Shown: positions 20,707 to 25,317 of the stretch, one piece after another | Numbering within the stretch: position 1 is the stretch's first letter | How the letters are laid out: the number at the start of each line of letters is the position of its first letter | IMG/VR virus record: IMGVR_UViG_3300047157_000035 | Coordinates: 1-36,447 of that record | Source of the DNA: a virus | Strand: one strand, 5' to 3' | Length of the DNA: 36,447 nucleotides | Program-made: the position numbers and the translations under genes | The notes under the pieces: generated by a model | The model's database searches: none | Told to the model about the DNA's origin: nothing | The model's input: only the letters and a program-made list of their open reading frames with translations

Positions 20707-20747
20707 AATCACGAAGTGAGTATATCAGAAACGATATATAAAGTCAA
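20707..20747 (-). promoter_or_regulatory. Leftward sigma70 promoter P1 with overlapping dyad
   Basis: On the minus strand TTGACT (20742-20747), a 17-bp spacer and TATACT (20719-20724). The 15-bp dyad ACTCAC TTC GTGATT at 20707-20721 begins in the -10 and crosses the expected start site. This is the same geometry as P2-P5, but with C/G as the variable arm pair. Drives the 20675 to 17451 unit (SSB, annealase). Confidence 0.8.
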
Positions 20748-21031
20748 CCTAAATTTAATAAGAACTCTTCCGAGTAATTAGTATTAGATAAAACTTTATC
20801 GTAATGTAAGTTAAGAATTACGCAACCATCATCAAGAACCATGTGACTCATAATTCCAAGAGTTTTAAGCTGGCTTACCTCACTTAGTTTTAAGCCATTC
20901 TGTTGTAATATTGAACGCTCACTCTCAACTCTATCATCATCGCCCCAAAGAGACACACACACCATCTCCTTATCGTTCCATCTGTAATCTGCTACGTTAA
21001 TTAATTTAACTAGTAAGTCAGTAATATTCAT
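20744..21031 (-). CDS. Hypothetical early protein
   Basis: 95 aa, mixed alpha/beta look (MVCVSLWGDDDRVESERSILQQNGLKLSEV). The start overlaps the stop of the 21028 gene (ATGA) and the stop overlaps the P1 -35 element. Third gene of the P2 unit. No family recognised. Confidence 0.6.
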   Translation of the reverse strand: MNITDLLVKLINVADYRWNDKEMVCVSLWGDDDRVESERSILQQNGLKLSEVSQLKTLGIMSHMVLDDGCVILNLHYDKVLSNTNYSEEFLLNLG

Positions 21032-21324
21032 GCGAACACCTCTATGCCTTTGTCACTACGAACATCTTTTTTTAAGACTGCACCAATAATATCCCAATGC
21101 GCTTTTGACGTTTCAAGAAAATCTAACCCGGCTTCTAACCATTTTTTGTGGACTTTAACACGTTGTGCAATACTCGCTTCTCTCATGTAATGCCTGTACT
21201 CATATGCCCAAAAATATGTCATGCCAAGATAGTTAGGTGTGCCAACAAAAGTCTCATCAAGTTTGATTAGAGCATCAGTAGCATCCCATGATATTGTGTT
21301 TAAGTTGATTGAATATGTAGACAT
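21028..21324 (-). CDS. Hypothetical early protein
   Basis: 98 aa with many aromatic residues (LGMTYFWAYEYRHYMRE) and a helical C-terminal half. AGGAG lies 8 bases before ATG 21324. A GC-rich hairpin (21342-21359) separates it from the upstream gene of the same unit. No recognised domain. Confidence 0.6.
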   Translation of the reverse strand: MSTYSINLNTISWDATDALIKLDETFVGTPNYLGMTYFWAYEYRHYMREASIAQRVKVHKKWLEAGLDFLETSKAHWDIIGAVLKKDVRSDKGIEVFA

Positions 21325-21341
21325 AGTATCTCCTAGTTTGT

Positions 21342-21359
21342 GGGGAGGTTGCCCTCCCC
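21342..21359 (-). terminator. GCAA-loop hairpin between cassette genes
   Basis: In the leftward transcript GGGGAGG pairs with CCTCCCC around a GCAA tetraloop (GNRA type). No T-tract follows; the next ribosome-binding site is about 10 bases on. More likely an mRNA-stabilising, processing or partial-termination element than a full terminator. Same family as hairpins at 21918, 22162, 22533 and 24318. Confidence 0.6.
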
Positions 21360-21366
21360 GGTTAAA

Positions 21367-21798
21367 TTACTTGTCAGCTCTAGCTTGAGTAACTTCAAAC
21401 GCTTCAGCACCTAAACAAACCTCGCCTCTGTCGTTAAGCATAAGGTGTTCTAGTGCCGCACTTTGCTCGATGTCTTTTTGCTCTGCTGAAATGTGAGCTT
21501 GACCAAGTGTAATTACACCAAGCATAACAAAGTCTAACAAAATTTTTACTGGAGGAACTTGACCATTGCTTCTCCACACAACAATGCCATCAACAAATTT
21601 AGCATCGTTCCATTTTGTCTCAATTGAATCGTCATAAGAATAAACGTGAGTGCCATAATCAACAACTTGAATATCTTTTGCAAGTAGAACATCGCCAGTA
21701 AAAGTTAATGGAAACTGTTTCCTGTGGTCAGTCATTCCTAATTCTTGTTTCTTGTAAAGGTTACTTGCAATATAAATTTCGTTTGGTAATGTGTTCAT
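21367..21798 (-). CDS. Hypothetical early protein
   Basis: 143 aa, first gene after promoter P2; start ATG 21798 with TAGGAGATACAA upstream, the cassette-type leader. Beta-rich first half (FPLTFTGDVLLAKDIQVVDYGTHVYSY), a hydrophobic stretch (VKILLDFVMLGVITLG), and an acidic C-terminal part. No family recognised. Confidence 0.6.
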   Translation of the reverse strand: MNTLPNEIYIASNLYKKQELGMTDHRKQFPLTFTGDVLLAKDIQVVDYGTHVYSYDDSIETKWNDAKFVDGIVVWRSNGQVPPVKILLDFVMLGVITLGQAHISAEQKDIEQSAALEHLMLNDRGEVCLGAEAFEVTQARADK

Positions 21799-21836
21799 TT
21801 GTATCTCCTATGGGTTAAAAGTGTGTAATTCATCTC

Positions 21837-21877
21837 AATTACGAGGTAATTATACAACATTTGAGACCATGTGTCAA
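21837..21877 (-). promoter_or_regulatory. Leftward sigma70 promoter P2 with overlapping dyad
   Basis: TTGACA (21872-21877), 17-bp spacer, TATAAT (21849-21854): full consensus on the minus strand. The dyad AATTAC CTC GTAATT (21837-21851) spans the 3' half of the -10 and the start site, with T/A as the variable arm pair where P3-P5 have G/C. The leader then carries CACTTTTAAC and TAGGAGATACAAATG-type sequence shared with P3 and P5. Confidence 0.88.
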
Positions 21878-21908
21878 GCTTTATTTAATTAAATAGAATA
21901 AATAAATT

Positions 21909-21933
21909 AAAAAAAAAGGGAGGTTGCCCTCCC
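21909..21933 (-). terminator. Rho-independent terminator, leftward
   Basis: In leftward RNA GGGAGG and CCTCCC (21918-21923 and 21928-21933) close a GCAA tetraloop and are followed by nine T (21909-21917). It ends the P3 unit after the 21942 gene and directly precedes the P2 promoter. Confidence 0.85.
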
Positions 21934-21941
21934 CGGTTAAT

Positions 21942-22139
21942 TTATAGTGTGTCAATTATTTCTTGGTTGCAAGCTATGTATCGTTTGCAGATTTTTCTAT
22001 ATTGCTTAACATCTGCCTTGCTCCAGTTAGAAAAAATAGTTTCAAAACTCCAAAAACTGCGACCATATTTTTGATGAAACTTTTGAATTTCTAAATCAAT
22101 TGATTCTTTTTCTGCATTTAATTTATCAATATTTGTCAT
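21942..22139 (-). CDS. Hypothetical small early protein
   Basis: 65 aa, helical and charged (IDKLNAEKESIDLEIQKFHQKY), with aromatic residues near the middle (SFWSFETIFSNWSK). GGAG precedes ATG 22139. Lies between a hairpin (22162) and the terminator at 21909. No family recognised. Confidence 0.55.
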   Translation of the reverse strand: MTNIDKLNAEKESIDLEIQKFHQKYGRSFWSFETIFSNWSKADVKQYRKICKRYIACNQEIIDTL

Positions 22140-22161
22140 TAAATTATTGCTCCTATTTTGT

Positions 22162-22179
22162 GGGGAGGTTGCCCTCCCC
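22162..22179 (-). terminator. GCAA-loop hairpin between cassette genes
   Basis: The same GGGGAGG-GCAA-CCTCCCC hairpin as at 21342, again without a T-tract, placed between the 22188 and 21942 genes and just upstream of the latter's ribosome-binding site. Likely RNA stability or processing element. Confidence 0.6.
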
Positions 22180-22187
22180 GGTTAAAA

Positions 22188-22424
22188 TTAACGTATATAT
22201 TTAAAGCCTCTGTCCATTGTTATTTTTCCCGGACTTTGACCTGCTTCTAATAAATTAAAATATTCTGTTGGTGTCATATTTTTAATTAAAAAAGTGATAA
22301 AACGTTTAGCTATATTTCTGTTGTATTTAAATCTACCAACAAATTCACCACGTTCACCATTCAAAAAATCATAAGTCAAATATTCACCATCAAAATTAAA
22401 TTGGTCTCTGTTAAATCTATTCAT
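22188..22424 (-). CDS. Hypothetical early protein
   Basis: 78 aa, first gene of the P3 unit, start ATG 22424 with AGGAGATACAA upstream. Aromatic-rich N terminus (FNRDQFNFDGEYLTYDFLNGERGEF), then a basic helix (NIAKRFITFLIKNM) and a Gly/Lys end. No family recognised. Confidence 0.6.
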   Translation of the reverse strand: MNRFNRDQFNFDGEYLTYDFLNGERGEFVGRFKYNRNIAKRFITFLIKNMTPTEYFNLLEAGQSPGKITMDRGFKYIR

Positions 22425-22464
22425 TTGTATCTCCTATTTAAGTTAAAAGTGCCATCAAGTTCTC

Positions 22465-22505
22465 AATGACAAGGTCATTATATCATAATTGATATGTTCT
22501 GTCAA
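22465..22505 (-). promoter_or_regulatory. Leftward sigma70 promoter P3 with overlapping dyad
   Basis: TTGACA (22500-22505), 17-bp spacer, TATAAT (22477-22482), extended by TG one base before the -10. The dyad AATGAC CTT GTCATT lies at 22465-22479 in the same position as in P1, P2, P4 and P5. Drives the 22424 and 22139 genes. Confidence 0.88.
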
Positions 22506-22525
22506 ATTAAATAGAAAAATAAATT

Positions 22526-22551
22526 AAAAAAAGGGAGGCTGTTAACCTCCC
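22526..22551 (-). terminator. Rho-independent terminator, leftward
   Basis: GGGAGG (22546-22551 read leftward) pairs with CCTCCC (22533-22538) across a 7-nt loop and is followed by seven T (22526-22532). It ends the DUF932 gene unit and lies just upstream of P3. Confidence 0.82.
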
Positions 22552-22568
22552 CGGTAGATTGTGTTACG

Positions 22569-23375
22569 TTACGCCGCAAGCATCTCAGTAAGCAATGGAA
22601 GGACTTTTCTTACCTTAGCCTCACGATTGTATATCGTAGCAACTTTGTTAGCCTCATTCTTAAATTTGGCGTGACTAGACCAGTCAGTCAAAGTGTTAAA
22701 CAATGCCCAAACAGTAGTACCCATTTCAGCTTTGTATTTAAGAAATGTTTCCTCAAGTAAAACCTGAAGTCTGTCGCTCTTGCCAGCTACCTGTTCGAAA
22801 ATTTTAGTAGCTGTAGCATTTGTAATACCTGTCTTAGCATACTGTTGCCAAATTTTAACGTTAGCTTCGTAGACCTCAAGAGCTGTCTCCATTTTAGCTA
22901 TAGCAACATCAGTATCTAGCGTGCTAGTGTGTTTAGCACTATATGAAGACAATGAATCGACTACAACCTGACCGTTCATACAAGCTAATCTAACAGCGCC
23001 TAGCATAGACATAAACTTCCAAGTACCATCACATGAGTTAAGCACCATAATTTGAAGCTGGACAAAGTCACCAACATCAACTGCCATTTCATGAGCTGGG
23101 AAAGTATAAACAACTTTAGTCTTAGCTCCATTGTGTGAGTAGTGGATTTTTTTAGTCATGCCAGTTCTGTCTAAGTTCGACTTCATAATTACATCGTGGA
23201 ACTGAGGCATGATGTCAGCATCTTGAACTAGATTATAGTTTTTACCAACAACTGCAATTGGCTCACCAGCTTCATTAACAATAGCTTTGTGTGTCTCTAC
23301 AGTTTTCTCAATCCATTCTTTTTTTGTAAATAAGCTTTGCTCATAAACTCTTGGGTATTCATTTACTATTTCCAT
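22569..23375 (-). CDS. DUF932 phage/plasmid protein
   Basis: 268 aa, usual size for DUF932. The visible family pattern includes AIVGKNYNLVQ-type sequence near residue 45 (AVVGKNYNLVQDADIM), a beta-rich middle, GAVRLACMNGQVV, and SSYSAKHTS about residues 125-150, then a helical C-terminal half. DUF932 proteins are common in phages and plasmids; no activity is established. It has its own promoter (P4) and terminator, so it is probably made in quantity. Start ATG 23375 has AGGAGATACAA upstream. Confidence 0.82.
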   Translation of the reverse strand: MEIVNEYPRVYEQSLFTKKEWIEKTVETHKAIVNEAGEPIAVVGKNYNLVQDADIMPQFHDVIMKSNLDRTGMTKKIHYSHNGAKTKVVYTFPAHEMAVDVGDFVQLQIMVLNSCDGTWKFMSMLGAVRLACMNGQVVVDSLSSYSAKHTSTLDTDVAIAKMETALEVYEANVKIWQQYAKTGITNATATKIFEQVAGKSDRLQVLLEETFLKYKAEMGTTVWALFNTLTDWSSHAKFKNEANKVATIYNREAKVRKVLPLLTEMLAA

Positions 23376-23422
23376 TGTATCTCCTATAAGTTAAAAAGTT
23401 GTCTCGCCATCAAGTATGTCTC

Positions 23423-23463
23423 AATGACGAGGTCATTATATCAGTATCTAATTAAATAGTCAA
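23423..23463 (-). promoter_or_regulatory. Leftward sigma70 promoter P4 with overlapping dyad
   Basis: TTGACT (23458-23463), 17-bp spacer, TATAAT (23435-23440) with TG extension. The dyad AATGAC CTC GTCATT is at 23423-23437. The leader to the DUF932 gene is about 55 nt and ends in the cassette-type ribosome-binding site. An AT-rich stretch containing TTTAATTAAA flanks the -35. Confidence 0.86.
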
Positions 23464-23474
23464 GCTTTATTTAA

Positions 23475-23771
23475 TTAAACAGGTGTATCAGTTTTAAACC
23501 ACTTGTCACTAACATCACCATCATCATTTTTGACAGTCCAATATTGAGTAGTAAAACCTAATATGTCTCTGTCTTTTTGTGCATATCTTTTTTCAACTAA
23601 TGTGACTTCACCAATATATGCATCATCCATCATCCAATAATGATAAAGTTTAACTCTGTTGCCAACTTTAAAATCTTCATAATTATTTTTTGATGGTGCA
23701 AACATTTTGTCTTCATCTTCAGTCATTAATTTGTCAAGTGCATCACTTAATATATTTACTGCTTTAGTCAT
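23475..23771 (-). CDS. Hypothetical early protein
   Basis: 98 aa, helical acidic start (NILSDALDKLMTEDEDKM), then a beta-rich SH3/KOW-like part (KVGNRVKLYHYWMMDDAYIGEVTLVEKRY) and WTVKNDDGDVSDKWF. The beta part resembles small barrel domains but no family can be named. Last gene of the P5 unit; its stop lies a few bases before the P4 -35. Confidence 0.6.
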   Translation of the reverse strand: MTKAVNILSDALDKLMTEDEDKMFAPSKNNYEDFKVGNRVKLYHYWMMDDAYIGEVTLVEKRYAQKDRDILGFTTQYWTVKNDDGDVSDKWFKTDTPV

Positions 23772-23780
23772 TTGTATCTC

Positions 23781-23963
23781 CTATTTTATAATCCAAGCCT
23801 GTTTTTCTACGTTAGAATGACAGACACCACACGCTATTGCTGACCATGAAAAATGATAAACTGTAGCGAATTTGAAACATAGTGGACAGATAATTTGTTT
23901 ACCATCTGCCCCAGCTCTAGTATGTTTGTCAACATACTTTGTATTGTGTGTAATCGTATACAT
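23781..23963 (-). CDS. Small zinc-ribbon-like protein
   Basis: 60 aa with two Cys pairs (CPLC and CGVC) separated by about 17 residues, a typical zinc-ribbon arrangement, plus His in the first third. The ATG overlaps the upstream stop (TAATG). Possibly binds nucleic acid or protein; ligand spacing is the only evidence. Confidence 0.6.
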   Translation of the reverse strand: MYTITHNTKYVDKHTRAGADGKQIICPLCFKFATVYHFSWSAIACGVCHSNVEKQAWIIK

Positions 23964-24292
23964 TATTTTTTATTACCAGTTCGCATGCCAATGCTAAAAA
24001 TATTCTTAGCCGCACTATCAAGACAATCAGTAATCTCATGTACAGTTTTATCAAGTTGCTTAATGTGTTTAATCAATATATCAATTTTTTCTTGTTGGTC
24101 TGTAATAACCATTTGTTGTTTTTGTATAACTTGAAAAACACTTCCATTTGGAAAACGTGTCATGTCATCTATAGCTATGTTGCCATTATTATCGAAAGCT
24201 TCAGAACCCCAGCCATTTTTAATGTCAAATGCTCTGTCAAGTCTTTCGTCCATGTCACGTATATCGTCTGAATAAATACTAAGTTCTATCAT
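23963..24292 (-). CDS. Hypothetical coiled-coil protein
   Basis: 109 aa. N-terminal acidic part (YSDDIRDMDERLDRAFD), a Gly/Asn segment, then a long helix with heptad spacing (VIQKQQMVITDQQEKIDILIKHIKQLD) and an end with KNIFSIGMRTG. Lies after a UUCG hairpin and has AGGAG upstream of its ATG. No family recognised. Confidence 0.55.
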   Translation of the reverse strand: MIELSIYSDDIRDMDERLDRAFDIKNGWGSEAFDNNGNIAIDDMTRFPNGSVFQVIQKQQMVITDQQEKIDILIKHIKQLDKTVHEITDCLDSAAKNIFSIGMRTGNKK

Positions 24293-24317
24293 TTAAATCT
24301 CCTAAAAGTTAAAGTGT

Positions 24318-24335
24318 GGGGAGGCGAACCTCCCC
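24318..24335 (-). terminator. UUCG-loop hairpin between cassette genes
   Basis: In leftward RNA GGGGAGG and CCTCCCC enclose UUCG. The stem is identical to the other cassette hairpins, but the GCAA loop is replaced by another very stable RNA tetraloop. No T-tract. Placed between the 24343 gene and the 23963 gene. Confidence 0.6.
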
Positions 24336-24342
24336 GGTTAAA

Positions 24343-24627
24343 TTACTTGATGCCTAACCTTATCATTTCTTTCTGCTCCCATCTTGAAACCATCATGCTT
24401 AGTTCAGCTTCAGTTGGGTCAAGGTCATCTAGGTATAAATCAGCTTCAACAAAATTCCAGTTTACAACACCGGCTGAGTCAACGTTTTCAGCTCTAACTA
24501 CTGACCTGTTAAATGCGTCCTGTAGTATGTGTCTACGAGCCTGACCTTTAAGCATACGCTCTTTAGAATCAAGCCTAGCAAGTTCAATGTCATCTAGTTG
24601 GTTGTTGATAATATCTAATGTGTTCAT
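24343..24627 (-). CDS. Hypothetical early protein, first of the leftward block
   Basis: 94 aa, helical and charged (NNQLDDIELARLDSKERMLKGQARRHIL), with an acidic C-terminal half (EADLYLDDLDPTEAELSMMV). First gene after P5. Function not recognised; as the promoter-proximal gene of the leftward block it may be among the first expressed. Confidence 0.6.
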   Translation of the reverse strand: MNTLDIINNQLDDIELARLDSKERMLKGQARRHILQDAFNRSVVRAENVDSAGVVNWNFVEADLYLDDLDPTEAELSMMVSRWEQKEMIRLGIK

Positions 24628-24665
24628 TCTAGCTCCTATGGGTTAAAAGTGCCACCGTTTATCTC

Positions 24666-24706
24666 GATGACAGAGTCATTATATCAGATTAGATACGTTC
24701 TGTCAA
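24666..24706 (-). promoter_or_regulatory. Leftward sigma70 promoter P5 with overlapping dyad
   Basis: TTGACA (24701-24706), 17-bp spacer, TATAAT (24678-24683) with TG extension: full consensus. The dyad AATGAC TCT GTCATC (24666-24680) has one arm mismatch. First promoter of the leftward block, next to the large noncoding region. Confidence 0.87.
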
Positions 24707-24814
24707 ATTAAATAGAAAAATAAATACAAATAGTTTGCACTAAGTTTTTTCTCAGGGTATGATTCGAGTCTTGGTTTAGTGTTTTTTGGGTAAGCTTACA
24801 ACCCGGAAAGCACA

Positions 24815-24876
24815 AACCCCCTGAGGTGGTTGACGTCTCAGAGGGTTCATTAAACTGGTGTTTGCCCACCGTTCTG
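24815..24876 (-). ncRNA. Candidate small RNA with terminator hairpin
   Basis: The promoter at 24883-24910 would start transcription near 24876 leftward. The transcript contains a small hairpin GGTG/CACC (24857-24870) and ends in an 11-bp stem (24837-24847 with 24815-24825) that is continuous only in this direction, because the single mismatch becomes a U-G pair. It is followed by GTTTGTGCTTT. There is no reading frame of note. Length about 60-75 nt. Predicted from promoter plus terminator only. Confidence 0.5.
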
Positions 24877-24882
24877 TAGAAG

Positions 24883-24910
24883 ATTATACCATCTCACAAC
24901 AACTTGGCAA
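24883..24910 (-). promoter_or_regulatory. Leftward promoter for candidate small RNA
   Basis: TTGCCA (24905-24910), 16-bp spacer and TATAAT (24883-24888) on the minus strand. It lacks the dyad found in P1-P5, so it would be regulated differently. Confidence 0.6.
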
Positions 24911-25317
24911 GTATCAGGATACGAGAGGTGATATGTCTAGCCGATACATGCTTCACTCAGACCTCTATAAATATTAAAGAGAATCAGCAATCGTATTCCA
25001 TAGCTGTTGATTGATGATAGGTTACTATCGTAGAGTGCAGAAGGCTGAGTACCTATTACAAGGTAGCGATGACTCTAACCTGACTAGCTGTAATGGTGTT
25101 AGGCTCGGATGATACTGCGAAGGCTTTATACCGATGAGAATCTCTAGTTTAGTCTAGGCTATTCTAGGGATTTCTTTACCCGAAACTCCCAGCTCAGGCA
25201 TTACCCGATAAGTTAAAAAGCTCTTTAAAAGGGATTTATCCCTCTGCTTTGTTTAGGAGAGTCTCCGAAGGAGAAGTCAGTACAAGAAAAAAAACAAGTA
25301 CCATACAGTATCTTTAT

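Follow-up and report, generated by a model that had tools for sequence, protein, structure and literature searches.

What holds a symmetric sequence in place across the start sites of five promoters of one phage, when one base of its arms varies and the partner base varies with it? The question is raised by the leftward gene block of IMG/VR virus record IMGVR_UViG_3300047157_000035, whose full length of 36,447 bp is the window analysed here, and for which a preliminary description had proposed selection for pairing, in a transcript 5′ hairpin or a DNA cruciform, or a family of operators, as part of coordinated control of the whole block. Analysis of the window confirmed five leftward σ70-type promoters, P1 to P5, with near-perfect −35 and −10 boxes and 17-bp spacers, each carrying at the described register a 15-bp dyad of two 6-bp arms around 3 bp, with a third arm pair of T-A in P2, G-C in P3, P4 and P5, and C-G in P1 (Table 1). 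We consider it fairly probable that the five sites are exchangeable promoter cassettes, a family directly visible in sequence comparisons, that join a putative operator-like start site to a conserved 5′ stem-loop predicted to protect the mRNA.

All five promoters lie in a 69-nt repeat family (five copies, 61–87% identity) and are paralogous; as mutual copies, their dyads are not independent observations. For comparison we used 43 IMG/VR loci encoding relatives of the DUF932 protein of the window, in which promoters were collected without a dyad criterion, from −35/−10 boxes and ribosome-binding-site context; 70 distinct promoters were retained of 85 candidates after unrelated loci and matches that were probably coding or non-homologous were removed by hand. 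The start was placed from a 6-nt discriminator and the Y/R step at −1/+1, making the G of GTNATT the predicted +1, and the base 5′ of it is a pyrimidine in all clusters except one. On this numbering the dyad takes in the final three bases of the −10 and extends over the start (−9 to +6), with P1 and P5 each short of one outer pair. Among the listed promoter-like sites on both strands of the whole window, only P1 to P5 matched at 5 or 6 of the 6 arm positions, compared to 1–4 for the others, and in eight records of relatives the full dyad matches were located solely at promoter cassettes.

A transcript 5′ hairpin was strongly supported, with arms other than those first proposed. A hairpin between the two dyad arms was rejected because the left arm (−9 to −4) lies upstream of +1 and is untranscribed, so that it cannot form in promoter-initiated transcripts. 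Instead, the partner of the right half (+1 to +6) is a further half-site, not listed earlier, which lies about 12–20 nt downstream as the third copy. This copy was present in nearly every cassette (GTAATT-GAGATG-AATTAC, GTGATT-GATTG-AATCAC, GTCATT-GAGAGAAA-AATGAC), just 5′ of an A/U-rich spacer and an AGGAG ribosome-binding site. In 60 of the 70 promoters a stem of 5 bp or more starts precisely at offset 6 after the −10 (shuffle mean 10.4, maximum 20), compared to 34 at offset 5; its position at the 5′ end depends on the predicted +1. Minimum-energy folds from ViennaRNA, of a stretch that excluded the ribosome-binding site, paired +1 in 66/70 promoters (mean z −2.29). The +1 pair was kept in 26/26 clusters, +3 occurred with four pair types and G·U wobbles were present; permutation of the right arms gave 4.77 ± 0.10 pairs compared to the 5.35 observed (0/5000).

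The stem also persisted where its sequence changed. At the syntenic P1 site most relatives have GUGAUU/AAUCAC; L021, L031 and L040 have GUUAC/GUAAC, in which the +3 and +5 pairs change with compensation, the flanks and loop are recognisable and the dyad is only 2/6. At the site after DUF932 the stems are AUGUUU/AAACAU in L021 and AUGUUC/GAACAU in L029, neither of which has a dyad there, and the dyad-breaking GTCATC of the P5 type is matched by a third arm of GGTGGC or GGTGAC. Wobble or compensated stems occur in the window itself, in P3 (GUCAUUGA/UUGAUGGC) and P5 (GUCAUCG/CGGUGGC). Since the stem is retained with new sequence, with compensatory pairs and without a DNA dyad, these comparisons indicate that the RNA hairpin is a structure conserved in its own right. 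Comparison with Rfam gave no match at gathering thresholds.

The scan of relatives bore out the covariation at the third arm position and assigned it a different origin. All four Watson-Crick pairs occur there, and the pair matched in 18 of 19 AC...GT cluster representatives compared to 8.1 on permutation (0/5000 reached the observed value). Chance matches to the 21-bp pattern in 85,000 bacterial and archaeal genomes were matched in 24/78, near chance, and host promoters were rejected as a source of the cassettes because these genome matches behave like chance. Two loci whose DUF932 is 98% identical to that of the window (L006 and L007) have a T-A cassette in place of the G-C P5 of the window, and their first gene differs too. 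Where the pair differs at one genomic site, the spacer and leader differ with it, and often the adjacent gene as well, which argues that the switches arise by cassette exchange, and the apparent compensation of the dyad is, on this evidence, a difference between duplicated and exchanged cassette lineages. Only two point changes were found at the variable base (TAC...GTC both in the L039/L041/L042 type and in L058); each disrupts the dyad but not the RNA stem. The dyad is also missing at some syntenic promoters (L021, L031, L040). The preliminary description had named both kinds of observation, homologous promoters without the dyad and arm changes that break pairing as often as they keep it, as grounds for abandoning its proposal, and they apply in part. 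Homologous promoters were not found in the cultured relatives Octadecabacter DB virus 2, HTVC106P and Venkman, and the leftward block showed no DNA similarity to a phage collection.

The same sequences indicate that the DNA dyad is a feature separate from the hairpin. Cassettes of the A-T type keep a 6/6 dyad despite an RNA stem of only 4 bp, and L034 and L099 keep the dyad with no clear RNA stem; with the hairpins that lack a dyad, this argues for two separable elements with one common arm. A dyad family, GATAAT-TAC-NNN-GTAATTGAGA, was common to T4-like phages unrelated to the window phage (L298, L303, L289, L302 and others), whose DnaB-type helicase is ~70–73% identical to those of cyanophage S-SSM4 and Methylophilales phage Melnitz. 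These phages have several promoters per genome (TTGAC-17-[GT]ATAAT-TAC-NNN-GTAATTGAGA) with a variable centre; the variable pair is always T-A and a consistent downstream arm was not seen. The motif was not found in Melnitz, and S-SSM4 had no full match and one non-promoter-like match with one mismatch. The leaders of P1 to P5, like every cassette with a hairpin and the dyad promoters of the T4-like phages, invariably have GA at +7/+8.

That the dyad recurs in the T4-like phages, where its centre varies and a consistent downstream arm is missing, speaks for a DNA site bound by protein; the recurrence suggests either one shared regulator or strong convergence. Because it is confined to promoters, varies in its central 3 bp, outlasts the RNA hairpin and occurs in a second group of phages too, the dyad is most likely an operator-like site for a dimeric repressor. 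Like the operators of XRE, Cro and Aca proteins, it is a short symmetric site with a variable centre over the −10 and +1, and the phage encodes a conserved lambda-repressor-like helix-turn-helix (HTH) protein, HTH 25353. It differs in that its half-sites co-vary at one base, a match not required of a standard homodimer operator, and in being linked to no protein, HTH 25353 being a candidate regulator only: its AlphaFold model (pLDDT 75) had XRE/Cro/Aca folds as best PDB matches, with E ~0.25–1 and none significant.

In the model that we favour, each of the five sites would be a copy of one promoter cassette, at which host RNA polymerase would initiate at the G of GTNATT, six bases past the −10. 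The mRNA would then open with a stem-loop paired from +1 onwards, the right half of the dyad pairing with the downstream third half-site; having no unpaired 5′ base, such a terminal stem should slow 5′-end-dependent decay (by RppH, then RNase E), whatever gene comes next. In the DNA, the right half would also mirror the end of the −10 to form the 15-bp symmetric site, and a dimeric repressor bound there (HTH 25353 or another protein) could block open-complex formation and switch the five units together. Cassettes would be duplicated and swapped between sites and phages, often beside terminators, with each pair type (T-A, G-C and C-G, and A-T in relatives) marking one lineage. Coordinated control of the leftward block, as originally suggested, is plausible, given that the element is common to all five transcription units. 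Such a cassette would represent a compact reusable expression module of uncultivated marine phages, comprising a strong promoter, an operator-like start, a 5′-protected mRNA and a ribosome-binding site, with copies at several transcription units and exchange from phage to phage.

Both halves of this model have precedents. Hairpins at the 5′ end stabilise mRNA and impede RppH (reviewed in PMC3997798), as for the stem-loops of ompA and papA (Emory 1992, Bricker and Belasco 1999, as cited in PMC3997798), which also lie at or near the extreme 5′ end, just 5′ of the ribosome-binding site. With a stem at the predicted 5′ end in 60/70 promoters and compensatory conservation in relatives at the P1 site and the site downstream of DUF932, the stem-loop described here probably protects its mRNA by analogy. 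It differs from ompA and papA in that the same stem design recurs on five or more units, from the predicted +1, and in that its 5′ arm doubles as part of a DNA dyad over the start. The exchange of cassettes resembles that of the PeSL promoter-terminator cassettes of T4-type phages, which are tied to gene shuffling (Arbiol 2010, Comeau 2014, as cited in PMC4503421). As far as that source describes them, the likeness lies in repeated early-type promoters between small variable genes, in part beside terminator stem-loops, as apparently exchangeable modules; here, too, the genes between cassettes are patchy across relatives, and the first cassette and its gene are replaced between near-identical phages. 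In contrast, the window phage is not T4-type (it is small, with Terminase_3, an SU10-type adaptor and podovirus-like genes), its promoters add, relative to the PeSL as cited there, a start-site DNA dyad and a 5′-terminal mRNA stem-loop, and a clear terminator with a T run adjoins only two of the five, P2 and P3. By analogy, then, the cassettes may act like a PeSL combined with a 5′-stabilising hairpin, and we do not claim PeSL membership for them.

Several points weigh against this model. The permutation tests ignore relatedness, and the third arms were picked by best pairing. A good 5′ stem is missing in some cassettes (the A-T type has 4 bp; L034, L035 and L099 also lack it; L041+4602 has none), which means that the stem is not obligatory. 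HTH 25353 is as well conserved in relatives that lack dyads as in those that have them, its recognition helix does not vary, its own promoter carries no dyad, and an operator with relaxed contact alone would not make both N positions match. The presence of HTH 25353 was rejected as a predictor of the dyad because it does not discriminate between the two sets of relatives. The occurrence of four Watson-Crick pairs, matched in nearly all clusters, and the position of the dyad exactly over the initial bubble would suit selection of the DNA dyad itself for pairing, as a non-template 6-3-6 hairpin in the scrunched initiating complex or by pairing of nascent RNA with the exposed left arm, which would help RNA polymerase leave a consensus promoter. 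We consider this improbable, since the changes at the variable base within syntenic cassettes number two and both break the pair, the T4-like group never varies it, and promoters with weak boxes (TTCCCT, TCCAAA) retain the dyad, which does not therefore track promoter strength. There is similarly little chance that one and the same half is under selection for two pairings, one with the DNA half next to the −10 (in the initiating complex, perhaps through a non-template-strand hairpin or nascent RNA) and one with the downstream RNA arm; if it were, start-site escape and mRNA protection would be coupled within an exchangeable phage promoter. The cruciform at the start site found no support, and its 6-bp arms would be short; hairpin promoters of N4-type virion RNA polymerase were rejected because the boxes are σ70 and no RNA polymerase gene was found among the open reading frames (ORFs) scanned, which were part of the total (Pfam, PHROGs).

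Conversely, selection might act on the RNA hairpin only, leaving the dyad as a by-product of inverted copying of the −10 and discriminator (quasi-palindrome template switching) with few origins. All three arms are copies of AATNAC, the lineages are few and their switches between relatives are cassette swaps, and the rebuilt hairpin coincides with dyad loss (L021, L031, L040); however, the perfect dyad in A-T, L034 and L099 cassettes with a weak or no hairpin, and its retention at more than 15 distinct promoters of the unrelated phage group with the central three bases freely varying, imply selection on the dyad and make this explanation rather unlikely. Somewhat less unlikely, though still doubtful, is a role of the stem-loop in translation, or as a site for RNA-protein binding, and not in mRNA stability: GA at +7/+8, with which the loop always begins, does not vary in any hairpin cassette, different stems included, and the hairpin lies just 5′ of the ribosome-binding site. 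Yet that site is 3′ of the stem, no RNA-binding candidate was identified, and T4-like promoters without the hairpin also keep GA, a dinucleotide that may thus matter in the DNA or in initiation. Chance is a very improbable source of the palindromes at these copies of one promoter, for although the paralogy of P1 to P5 leaves fewer than five independent observations, four pair types match across the relatives compared to 24/78 for the background, and the unrelated phage group has the dyad as well.

Table 1. Promoters, dyads, stem-loops and associated features of the leftward block
Feature	Position	Strand	Description
P5 promoter	24678..24706	−	TTGACA-17-TATAAT, −35 from 24706; drives ORF 24343-24627 and genes after
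P5 dyad	24666..24680	−	AATGAC-TCT-GTCATC, 5/6 pairs; predicted +1 24671
P5 RNA stem-loop	24651..24671	−	GUCAUCG-AGAUAAA-CGGUGGC, 7 bp with G·U pairs, from +1
P4 promoter	23435..23463	−	TTGACT-17-TATAAT, −35 from 23463; drives DUF932 gene 22569-23375
P4 dyad	23423..23437	−	AATGAC-CTC-GTCATT, 6/6; predicted +1 23428
P4 RNA stem-loop	23406..23428	−	GUCAUUGAG-ACAUA-CUUGAUGGC, 9 bp
P3 promoter	22477..22505	−	TTGACA-17-TATAAT, −35 from 22505; drives 22188-22424 and 21942-22139
P3 dyad	22465..22479	−	AATGAC-CTT-GTCATT, 6/6; predicted +1 22470
P3 RNA stem-loop	22451..22470	−	GUCAUUGA-GAAC-UUGAUGGC, 8 bp with G·U pairs
P2 promoter	21849..21877	−	TTGACA-17-TATAAT, −35 from 21877; drives 21367-21798 and genes after
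P2 dyad	21837..21851	−	AATTAC-CTC-GTAATT, 6/6; predicted +1 21842
P2 RNA stem-loop	21825..21842	−	GUAAUU-GAGAUG-AAUUAC, 6 bp
P1 promoter	20719..20747	−	TTGACT-17-TATACT, −35 from 20747
P1 dyad	20707..20721	−	ACTCAC-TTC-GTGATT, 5/6; predicted +1 20712
P1 RNA stem-loop	20696..20712	−	GUGAUU-GAUUG-AAUCAC, 6 bp
Terminator-like hairpin with T run	22532..22552	−	between DUF932 gene and P3
Terminator-like hairpin with T run	21917..21934	−	between 21942-22139 and P2
Lambda-repressor-like HTH protein, 68 aa	25353..25559	+	putative; candidate dyad reader

Pfam and PHROGs scans of ORFs identified the Terminase_3 large subunit and the SU10-type adaptor in the window; the leftward block codes for SSB, a winged-HTH protein, the DUF932 protein and many small proteins without assignment, and the P1 operon includes 20215, 19830 (winged HTH), 19186 and ssb (18637). 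The spacers of P1 to P5 and of most cassettes in relatives contain TATC or TCTC ~9–12 bases 5′ of the −10, often accompanied by a TG just 5′ of the −10, including in cassettes with poor −35 boxes. Near-identical GGGGAGG/CCTCCCC hairpins without a T run lie at 21342-21359, 22162-22179 and 24318-24335, just 5′ of the ribosome-binding sites of internal genes, so that internal cistrons too have a hairpin before the ribosome-binding site; these are possibly processing or stabilising elements. Between two gene blocks, ~400 bp of non-coding DNA (24900-25310; leader 24710-24885) shows strong conservation across 33 distinct sequences. It includes long stretches without variation, matches no Rfam family at threshold and is possibly a structured phage RNA. 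At the edge of this stretch, a conserved TTGCCA-16-TATAAT promoter at 24910 (−) reads toward P5.

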